This document shows, piece by piece, positions 8,385 through 10,066 of a stretch of 32,567 nucleotides of DNA. The stretch is from an uncultured Bacilli bacterium (lineage in GTDB: Bacteria > Bacillota_I > Bacilli_A > RFN20 > CAG-631). The notes beneath the pieces are model-generated. The model did no database searches. It was not told the DNA's origin and was given only the letters and a program-made list of their open reading frames with translations. The stretch's first letter is position 1. The number at the start of each line of letters is the position of its first letter. The position numbers and the translations under genes were made by a program. The DNA lies in the NCBI GenBank assembly GCA_947626825.1, contig CANQTM010000001.1, positions 1 through 32,567 of the forward strand. Direction: 5' to 3'.

Positions 8385-9551
8385 TTATTTGGAATTAATA
8401 AGTCTTTTAATAGCATCTTGCGCTTCTTTATTTCCTTGATTAGCAGCTTTTGTGTACCATTCAATAGCTTTTGTTAAGTCTTTTGAAACACCATAACCTT
8501 TTTCATAAAAAATTCCTAAATTATATTGTGCAATAACGCTACCTTTATATGCTGCTTTTTCATACAAATAAAAAGCTTTTTTATAATCTTTAGCAACAAC
8601 TTCTTCACCACATCTATAATAAGCAGCTAAGCATATTTGTGCTTGTGTATGATCTTGATTAGCTGCTTTTTCATATAAAGCAAAGGCTTTTAAATAATCT
8701 TTTTCAACACCTTTTCCATATATGTAACAAAGGCCCAAATTATATTGTGCATTTGCATTTCCCTGATTAGCCGCTTTTTCAAACCAGTAGAATGCTTTTG
8801 CATAATCAATGGAAACGCCACGACCATAATAATAGCAATTACCTAAACTGTTTTGTGCATAAGAATATCCTTGATTAGCCGCTTTTTCAAACCAGTAGAA
8901 TGCTTTTTCATCATCTTGAGAAACGCCCTGACCTGAGTAATAGAAATTGCCTAAACCGTTTTGTGCAATAGCATATCCTTGATTGGCTGCTTTTTCATAT
9001 AAAGCAAAGGCTTTTAAATAATCTTTTTCAACACCTTTTCCATATATGTAACAAAGGCCCAAATTATATTGTGCATTTGCATTTCCCTGATTAGCCGCTT
9101 TTTCAAACCAGTAGAATGCTTTTGCATAATCAATGGAAACGCCACGACCATAATAATAGCAATACCCTAACATGTATTGTGCATTTGCATTTTCTTGATT
9201 GGCCGCTTTTTCATACCAGTGAAAAGCTTTTTCGTAATCTTGAGAAACACCCTGACCATAATAATAACAAAGGCCCAAATTATATTGTGCTTTAGCATCG
9301 CCTTGATTAGCAGCTTTTGTGTAGCATTCAATAGCTTTTGTTAAATCTTTAGAAATACCATAACCATAATAATAGCAATCACCCAAACATATTTGTTTAG
9401 TTAGGCTATCTTTTTGCATAAGTATAAAATTATATAAATCTTTTTTCTTTTCTTCAGCTAGTCCTATATTCTCAAAAATATAACCATTACAAATTTTTTT
9501 ATAAAATTGTTCAACTGATTTAACAACTATTTTGTCATATTTATATTTCAT
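8385..9551 (-). CDS. Sel1-like repeat (SLR/TPR) protein
   Basis: 388 residues. After a unique N-terminal 50 residues come nine Sel1-like repeats of 36 residues (the eighth has 37), each with the pattern AQYNLGxCYxYGxGV.KDY.KAF.WYEKAANQG, then a short cap. Sel1 proteins are alpha-solenoid scaffolds for protein contacts. There is no signal peptide, so it is probably cytoplasmic. Repeats 3-4 and 6-7 are almost identical, also at DNA level (see repeat entry). ATG 9551 is chosen because GGGGGAAG lies seven bases before it; an ATG five codons upstream (9566) has no ribosome site. A promoter TTTCAA-17-TACAAT precedes it on the minus strand (9572-9600). Partner and pathway are unknown. Confidence 0.85.
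   Translation of the reverse strand: MKYKYDKIVVKSVEQFYKKICNGYIFENIGLAEEKKKDLYNFILMQKDSLTKQICLGDCYYYGYGISKDLTKAIECYTKAANQGDAKAQYNLGLCYYYGQGVSQDYEKAFHWYEKAANQENANAQYMLGYCYYYGRGVSIDYAKAFYWFEKAANQGNANAQYNLGLCYIYGKGVEKDYLKAFALYEKAANQGYAIAQNGLGNFYYSGQGVSQDDEKAFYWFEKAANQGYSYAQNSLGNCYYYGRGVSIDYAKAFYWFEKAANQGNANAQYNLGLCYIYGKGVEKDYLKAFALYEKAANQDHTQAQICLAAYYRCGEEVVAKDYKKAFYLYEKAAYKGSVIAQYNLGIFYEKGYGVSKDLTKAIEWYTKAANQGNKEAQDAIKRLINSK
8662..9163. repeat. 178-bp exact direct repeat inside the Sel1 gene
   Basis: Bases 8662-8839 and 8986-9163 are identical by eye, offset by 324 bp, which is three 36-residue repeats. The identity covers third codon positions, so this is a recent in-frame duplication or gene conversion and not protein-level selection alone. 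Confidence 0.9.
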
Positions 9552-9571
9552 AATATCTTCCCCCATTAATA

Positions 9572-9644: not shown

Positions 9645-9674
9645 TTGCATTATATTTTAAAGTTGGCATATAAT
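9645..9674 (+). promoter_or_regulatory. Promoter of small RNA copy A
   Basis: TTGCAT (9645-9650), 18-bp spacer, TATAAT (9669-9674). The conserved RNA block begins five bases after the -10, exactly as in copy B. Confidence 0.75.
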
Positions 9675-9678
9675 ATTG

Positions 9679-9732
9679 GTGAAAGTAGGACGGATGAGCT
9701 AATGACTCGTCCACAGCGCTACTTTCTTTTTT
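9679..9732 (+). ncRNA. Candidate small RNA, copy A of a tandem pair
   Basis: A unit of about 54 nt: conserved block GTGAAAGTAGGACG, two variable positions, then GAGCTAATGACTC, a variable part, and CTACTTTC followed by six T. GAAAGTAG (9681-9688) pairs with CTACTTTC (9719-9726), making the whole RNA one intrinsic terminator stem with an internal GAG/CTC stem and a CTAATGA loop. In this copy GACG (9689-9692) can also pair with CGTC (9708-9711), an alternative to the GAG/CTC stem. It lies in its own promoter-terminator unit and no plus-strand gene follows closely, so it is not an obvious leader. I do not recognise the family. Confidence 0.7.
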
Positions 9733-9821
9733 GTTTTGTCAATTATAAACATGGCCATAATTCTACCTATATAATTTAAAAAATCGTACAAAAATTTAAT
9801 TTATTATCAAAAAATTTAATA

Positions 9822-9851
9822 TTGACATTTTGTTTTAAATTAGAATAAAAT
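9822..9851 (+). promoter_or_regulatory. Promoter of small RNA copy B
   Basis: TTGACA (9822-9827, consensus), 18-bp spacer, TAAAAT (9846-9851), then four bases and the conserved RNA block. The flanking DNA differs from that of copy A, while promoter spacing and RNA are kept. Confidence 0.75.
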
Positions 9852-9855
9852 ATAA

Positions 9856-9908
9856 GTGAAAGTAGGACGAACGAGCTAATGACTCTTTCTTAGGCTACTT
9901 TCTTTTTT
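9856..9908 (+). ncRNA. Candidate small RNA, copy B of a tandem pair
   Basis: About 53 nt, offset 177 bp from copy A. The first 30 nt match copy A except at two positions (9870 and 9872). The next 9 nt differ completely from the 10 nt in copy A, and the last 14 nt (CTACTTTC plus six T) are identical. The outer stem (9858-9865 with 9895-9902) and the GAG-CTAATGA-CTC hairpin are preserved; the extra GACG/CGTC pairing of copy A is lost. Confidence 0.7.
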
Positions 9909-9941
9909 AAATTTTTACAATAAAAATATAACAAGATTCAT

Positions 9942-9973
9942 AAAAAAATTGATACAATCGTATCAATTTTTTT
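9942..9973. terminator. Bidirectional terminator between small RNA B and tRNA-Leu
   Basis: A perfect 14-bp stem (9942-9955 with 9960-9973) with loop AATC. One arm starts with seven A and the other ends with seven T, so it ends the tRNA transcript (-) and any plus-strand read-through. Confidence 0.88.
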
Positions 9974-9981
9974 GATAATTT

Positions 9982-10066
9982 TGGTGCCTGTGACCGGACT
10001 CGAACCGGTACGGAATTACCCGCTTGATTTTGAGTCAAGTTTGTCTACCAATTTCAACACACAGGC
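9982..10066 (-). tRNA. tRNA-Leu, anticodon CAA
   Basis: A class II tRNA of 85 nt including encoded CCA. The acceptor GCCTGTG pairs with CACAGGC, discriminator A. The anticodon loop CTCAAAA is closed by CTTGA/TCAAG; the long variable arm is CGG-gtaatt-CCG; the T loop TTCGAGT is closed by ACCGG/CCGGT. It reads UUG codons. Promoter upstream on the minus strand, terminator downstream. Confidence 0.97.

Follow-up and report, generated by a model that had tools for sequence, protein, structure and literature searches.

Tandem orphan RNA units in an uncultured Bacilli genome as probable solitary members of the RNA half of a toxin–antitoxin-like module with a predicted MazF-fold partner

Two tandem promoter–RNA–terminator units have been identified in a 32,567-nt stretch of DNA from an uncultured Bacilli bacterium (genome G000; the whole stretch is referred to below as the window). 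They are probably solitary members of the RNA half of an undescribed toxin–antitoxin-like module, whose other half is a convergent gene encoding a small protein of predicted MazF fold. The first-pass annotation, made from the window alone, had described the units as a duplicated regulatory or decoy RNA; this is revised here to an RNA antitoxin-type partner, tied elsewhere to the convergent protein gene and orphaned in the window.

Both units were confirmed by direct reading of the sequence, lie on the plus strand and are 177 bp apart (Table 1). Everything initially reported about their layout checks out, that is, tandem arrangement, promoter hexamers, 18-bp spacers, a gap of four bases before the RNA (ATTG between TATAAT and the start at 9679 in copy A, ATAA between TAAAAT and the start at 9856 in copy B), a shared block and the common ending CTACTTTC-T6. 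The shared block is 30 nt long (9679–9708 and 9856–9885), differs between the copies at two positions, and is followed by a variable segment of 10 nt in copy A and 9 nt in copy B and then by CTACTTTC and six T in both. The promoter of copy B has 11 of 12 matches, the top score across 8–12 kb, equalled by none of 300 shuffles, while that of copy A, with a weak –35 element, has 9 of 12 matches compared to 7.35 for shuffles, 9% of which equal it. Both RNAs fold more stably than shuffles (z of –3.7 for A and –2.5 for B), and the whole 1.84-Mb genome holds these two copies only, with zero matches in the backwards control.

Table 1. Features of the two units and of the adjacent site (positions in the window).
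Feature	Position	Strand	Details
Promoter, copy A	9645..9674	+	TTGCAT 9645-9650, 18-bp spacer, TATAAT 9669-9674
RNA, copy A	9679..9732	+	~54 nt; covariance model match 82.4 bits; fold z -3.69
Stem 1, copy A	9681-9688/9719-9726	+	conserved structure from alignment
Internal loop, copy A	9689-9691 and 9713-9718	+	conserved structure
Stem 2, copy A	9692-9698/9706-9712	+	apical loop CTAATGA 9699-9705
T6, copy A	9727-9732	+	sequence
Promoter, copy B	9822..9851	+	TTGACA 9822-9827, 18-bp spacer, TAAAAT 9846-9851
RNA, copy B	9856..9908	+	~53 nt; covariance model match 75.1 bits; fold z -2.47
Stem 1, copy B	9858-9865/9895-9902	+	conserved structure
Stem 2, copy B	9869-9875/9883-9889	+	one C-U mismatch; loop CTAATGA 9876-9882
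T6, copy B	9903-9908	+	sequence
Empty site of convergent toxin-like 3' part	9909..9984	-	no protein remnant scored
tRNA gene	9985-10066	-	beyond the 9909..9984 site

The conserved structure comprises stem 1 (GAAAGTAG/CTACTTTC), an internal loop (GAC/NYAGCG), a 7-bp stem 2 (GNNNGAG/CTCNNNC) and a 7-nt loop CTAATGA. Pairing of GACG with CGTC, earlier taken for the key helix, turned out to be wrong, as the conserved structure is formed by two other stems. The 5' block is indeed conserved, and its supposed conservation for sequence, beyond mere folding, has to be modified, since the covarying two-stem structure mainly explains it. Eight distinct members aligned without a model have 95.8% of cells paired, and their covariation (0.238 vs 0.096 in shuffles) was reached by none of 500 shuffles. 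For 45 distinct members the covariation score is 0.537 vs 0.198 ± 0.014 in shuffles, and both sides change in 13 of 15 pairs, a count that leans towards structure, as this alignment was fitted to the covariance model.

When 98 relatives were scanned with a sequence pattern, the block turned up in other families of this order, in many cases in tandem. The search of related genomes with a covariance model, proposed at the outset, recovered the RNA family in 34 of 279 genomes of the order with the wider model R2 (19 of 279 with model R1), and two more genomes carry it elsewhere in the class (G441 and G357). Rfam gave no match to the window RNAs up to E = 10, except for a spurious one to GOLLD, and none at gathering score for the relatives, in line with the earlier view of the units as self-contained small RNA genes of no known family. 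Neither RNA nor protein relatives were seen in the viral contigs, phage or plasmid collections searched.

The family has two main forms, both with a bulged CUAG core: type A, GGAAGUAG-GACG...CCUAGCG-CUACUUCC, which is the form found in the window, and type B, GAAUUCACC-CGUGGUAG...CUACCGC-CUAG-UGGGAAUUC. The apical loop varies within the family (CUAAUGA, CUCAUGA, CUUUGUU, UUCG and others), CUAAUGA being kept in most window-type RNAs. Recognised promoters are weak or absent in over half of the family members; those of window-type orphan RNAs are mostly strong (10–11 of 12 matches, 9 of 12 in copy A), which suggests that expression has been kept.

The sole recurrent class of neighbours is a gene of a small basic protein (~100–120 aa), which is read from the other strand and ends where the RNA ends. 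Flanking genes otherwise vary from locus to locus, which supports the initial impression that the RNA is conserved while its surroundings drift. By coordinates, the linkage is observed in at least 16 loci (11 full protein genes and 5 partial, decayed ones), all of them convergent, with a gap of –14 to +20 nt between the protein gene and the RNA, and the protein stop codons fall inside or at the RNA hairpin. Both RNA matches outside the order (G441, G357), obtained with the RNA model alone, are located at partner genes, and these genes were also found independently by the protein model. The protein family is present in 70 of 279 genomes of the order, in up to five copies each, and sampling across the phylum detected it in this class only.

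Of 44 protein genes, 75% have a strong convergent hairpin with a T-run at their 3' end, vs 4% of 171 control ORFs from the same loci (p about 1e-23, to be taken as a guide only, as related genes are not independent). In loci L074 and L072 (genomes G270 and G080), three tandem protein-gene/RNA modules are observed, each RNA lying 3' of its own gene. Given the order- and class-wide recurrence, the fixed geometry, the shuffling controls and the independent discovery by RNA and protein models, a chance origin is untenable. No conserved same-strand ORF that could encode a protein antitoxin was found upstream of 32 protein genes.

No credible family match for the protein was obtained with Pfam, NCBIfam or PADLOC. 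In the Pfam and NCBIfam scans of 30 members, none reached the PF02452 (PemK) cut-off or credibly matched the ToxN, CptN and TenpN models, and the TenpIN model hit an unrelated neighbour only; PHROG 1936 (MazF-like growth inhibitor) matches two members weakly (E 0.017). In the 30-member alignment H24, P25, P60 and D94 are invariant, and T44 is near-invariant. The AlphaFold (AF2) model is beta-rich with a C-terminal helix (pLDDT 91, pTM 0.85), and all 50 matches listed by Foldseek against PDB are MazF-family mRNA interferases (probability 0.99–1.00), with modest E-values, the best being 1.5e-3, and TM about 0.5–0.6; PemK/MazF proteins also lead the matches in the viral library. In profile comparison, similarity to PemK proteins is weak (probability 12%, E 0.0024), and H24-P25 is aligned with the R-P motif, which in MazF holds the catalytic arginine. 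This ~105-aa basic protein of predicted MazF/PemK fold is probably an mRNA-cutting toxin.

At the 3' ends of genes from other protein clades, different structured RNAs with T-runs are located, often with promoter-like sequences (types C, D, E and F). Mapping of the six RNA types A–F on the protein tree takes five changes, the minimum possible, and none of 200 shuffles was as good; as such congruence could arise from linkage alone, it argues for a stable partnership and not for binding. One more RNA variant, GGAAGUAGACCGGUGGACAU...GCAUCUGUAUGGCUACUUCC, precedes tandem copies in two loci (L016, 9792–9847, minus strand; L017, 226–281, plus strand) and resembles the RNA beside the protein of locus L073.

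In the 95%-complete window genome no toxin-like gene was found, nor was one found in the relatives from family f1 and genus g19 that carry the RNA, and a toxin gene may sit in the 5% of G000 left unassembled. The descent of the window copies from complete modules is argued from homology, as no toxin remnant was detected beside copy A or copy B. Beside several sister type A orphan RNAs, toxin remnants do persist that match a complete module in position and orientation (35.0 bits in G198, 28.8 in G022, 29.3 in G050 and 18.6 in G002), some of them with stop codons, and none of 300 shuffles was as good; the G002 remnant is the sole toxin match in its genome at E up to 10 (E 0.088). In G238, three type A RNAs are arranged in tandem, the last one overlapping an intact toxin gene and the extra ones situated 67 and 153 nt past this gene. 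The best reading of these sequence comparisons is that the window lineage lost the toxin gene, and kept and duplicated the RNA. The orphans are possibly conserved for neutralising related toxins that arrive later.

The complete module is best read as type III-like with a new architecture: convergent, with the RNA under its own promoter and as a single unit. The RNA gene would be transcribed towards the toxin gene and end in a terminator formed by the RNA's own stem, so that the two genes would meet or overlap at their 3' ends. The folded RNA, with its terminal stem, bulged internal loop and apical stem-loop, would bind the cognate toxin and block its RNA-cutting site, as in type III systems, and an additional antisense effect is possible through the few bases that overlap the toxin mRNA. 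The RNA family, its structure, the convergent linkage, the MazF-like fold, the match of RNA type to protein clade, the lack of a toxin gene in G000 and the remnants beside sister orphans are computed results; the toxicity of the protein, its binding by RNA and the present function of the copies in G000 are inferred. A bolder proposal, possible rather than probable, is a new toxin–antitoxin class in which a minimal MazF-fold toxin is bound by a clade-specific convergent RNA that also touches its mRNA, with multiplied orphans constituting a genome-encoded defence.

In type III systems (ToxIN, CptIN, TenpIN), RNA and toxin form a bicistronic operon under one promoter, in which tandem antitoxin repeats precede the toxin gene on its own strand (PMC5086642); the known repeats are 34–50 nt long (PMC5086642, PMC12373285). 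The toxin also processes the transcript of this array. The module shares with them a small structured RNA, a toxin with the MazF/Kid fold (here predicted) and an intrinsic terminator after the RNA. On the contrary, here the RNA gene faces the toxin gene from the other strand, is separately promoted and overlaps the toxin 3' end, each predicted transcript consists of one unit that carries a terminator, any tandem copies being genes in their own right, and the protein matches no ToxIN, CptIN or TenpIN model. We do not file the module as a type III member, since the operon order, the tandem repeats and the matches to toxin family models were all looked for and are absent; it may still work like a type III system.

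With MazF/PemK mRNA interferases of type II the protein shares the predicted fold, the size and a His-Pro aligned with Arg-Pro, but unlike MazEF/PemIK it has no antitoxin ORF upstream and no Pfam PemK match, and the sequence similarity is marginal. An analogy in the way of neutralisation could be AbiF/RCd22, where a structured ncRNA binds the toxin directly and thereby neutralises it, both in cis and in trans (PMC12373285). There, as here, a structured ncRNA is paired with a toxin-like gene, and direct binding would be common to both, whereas the AbiF/RCd22 protein is Abi_2 and its RNA is upstream of the gene rather than convergent with it. A literature search for a convergent RNA/MazF-like system returned none.

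The main rival explanation is type I-like, as in RatA/TxpA: by pairing with the 3'-terminal part of the toxin mRNA, an antisense RNA would block translation or destabilise the message. In TxpA/RatA-type pairs the RNA and toxin genes overlap tail-to-tail, and a convergent layout characterises some type I pairs; here too the layout is convergent, most loci have a tail-to-tail overlap of 2–14 nt, and toxin stop codons lie within the hairpin. Pairing in cis, however, would not call for a conserved structure, and here 13 of 15 pairs covary and the internal loops are fixed. TxpA/RatA combines small hydrophobic toxins with a base-pairing RNA, whereas the RNA studied here has a conserved structure and is also found where the target is missing, and the protein is predicted to be a folded MazF-like barrel and not a small hydrophobic peptide. 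As the extra tandem copies of G238 and the toxin-less orphans have no obvious mRNA to pair with, the antisense explanation leaves them, along with the structural covariation, unaccounted for, and we consider it unlikely.

Still less probable are free-standing trans-acting RNAs that pair with mRNAs via the CUAAUGA loop and are found near MazF-like genes because of a shared insertion hotspot. The solitary copies of the window and of genus g19, with their mostly strong promoters, the position of the g19 copies 180–600 nt upstream of ackA and the conservation of the loop in most RNAs of the window type would all suit such RNAs, but the loop is swapped for UUCG, CUUUGUU, CUCAUGA and others within the same family, the RNA and the protein gene keep a fixed distance and orientation, and beside other protein clades the same spot is taken by unrelated RNA types. 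The hairpin being a mere transcription terminator of the protein gene is highly improbable: each unit does end in a hairpin with a T-run, at the gene 3' end in complete modules, but the T-run lies on the strand that does not encode the protein and so cannot terminate the transcript of the gene, many loci have a promoter a few bases before the hairpin, and the structure is conserved far beyond the needs of a terminator and persists without the gene.

Several other readings were rejected. Leaders of one gene class, named as an alternative in the first-pass annotation, and riboswitch or attenuator leaders in particular, do not fit, as no single gene class is directly downstream on the same strand; such genes, where any, are about 180–600 nt beyond the RNA terminators, and their identity differs between lineages. 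The same applies to an ackA leader in genus g19, since ackA is 180–600 nt away with terminators between, and other copies have no adjoining ackA. A short ORF within the RNA (ATGACTC..., coding for MTLS-stop in some copies) has its start codon in the loop, where it is replaced in relatives; an anticodon-loop mimic (CU at the loop start) is at odds with loops varying to UUCG, and a CsrA-like decoy (GGA motif), with GGAUG of copy A not retained in copy B. An integron attC or transposon end was discarded, as there is no gene-cassette array and promoters precede the hairpin in many loci.

These data add one family of toxin-like proteins, together with six or more structured RNA classes linked to it, from an uncultured Bacilli lineage; they are absent from Rfam, Pfam, NCBIfam and PADLOC. 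If the type III-like reading is true, the variety of MazF-like toxins neutralised by RNA goes beyond the three type III families, and such modules would be missed by any search demanding tandem repeats upstream of the toxin. The orphan RNAs allow for a direct test of solitary antitoxins being kept as anti-addiction genes, and the size of the components (a 54-nt RNA and a ~100-aa protein) permits quick testing.

Some further genes were observed near the RNAs or in the same genome. In the window, a gene of a Sel1-repeat-like protein (identified by eye; 8385–9566, minus strand) is divergent from copy A, and none similar is located beside the relatives. Outside the window, contig C1 of G000 encodes at 57964–58302 a ~182-aa PF02452-positive protein, unlinked to the RNAs; similar proteins occur in 17 of 40 relatives and represent a possible conserved PemK relative. 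Orphan type B RNAs of five loci (L029, L049, L050, L051 and L053) adjoin accessory genes, with DUF6036 nucleotidyltransferase identified by Pfam, and an MqsA-like antitoxin, a DUF1016-like nuclease, an AlbA_2-like protein and a Phd-like antitoxin recognised in these loci by eye only. In locus L028 (G094), a minus-strand ORF of 155 aa, ~460 bp from an orphan type B RNA, encodes a TenpN type III toxin (NF047358, E 4.8e-43), which fits a toxin-rich neighbourhood.
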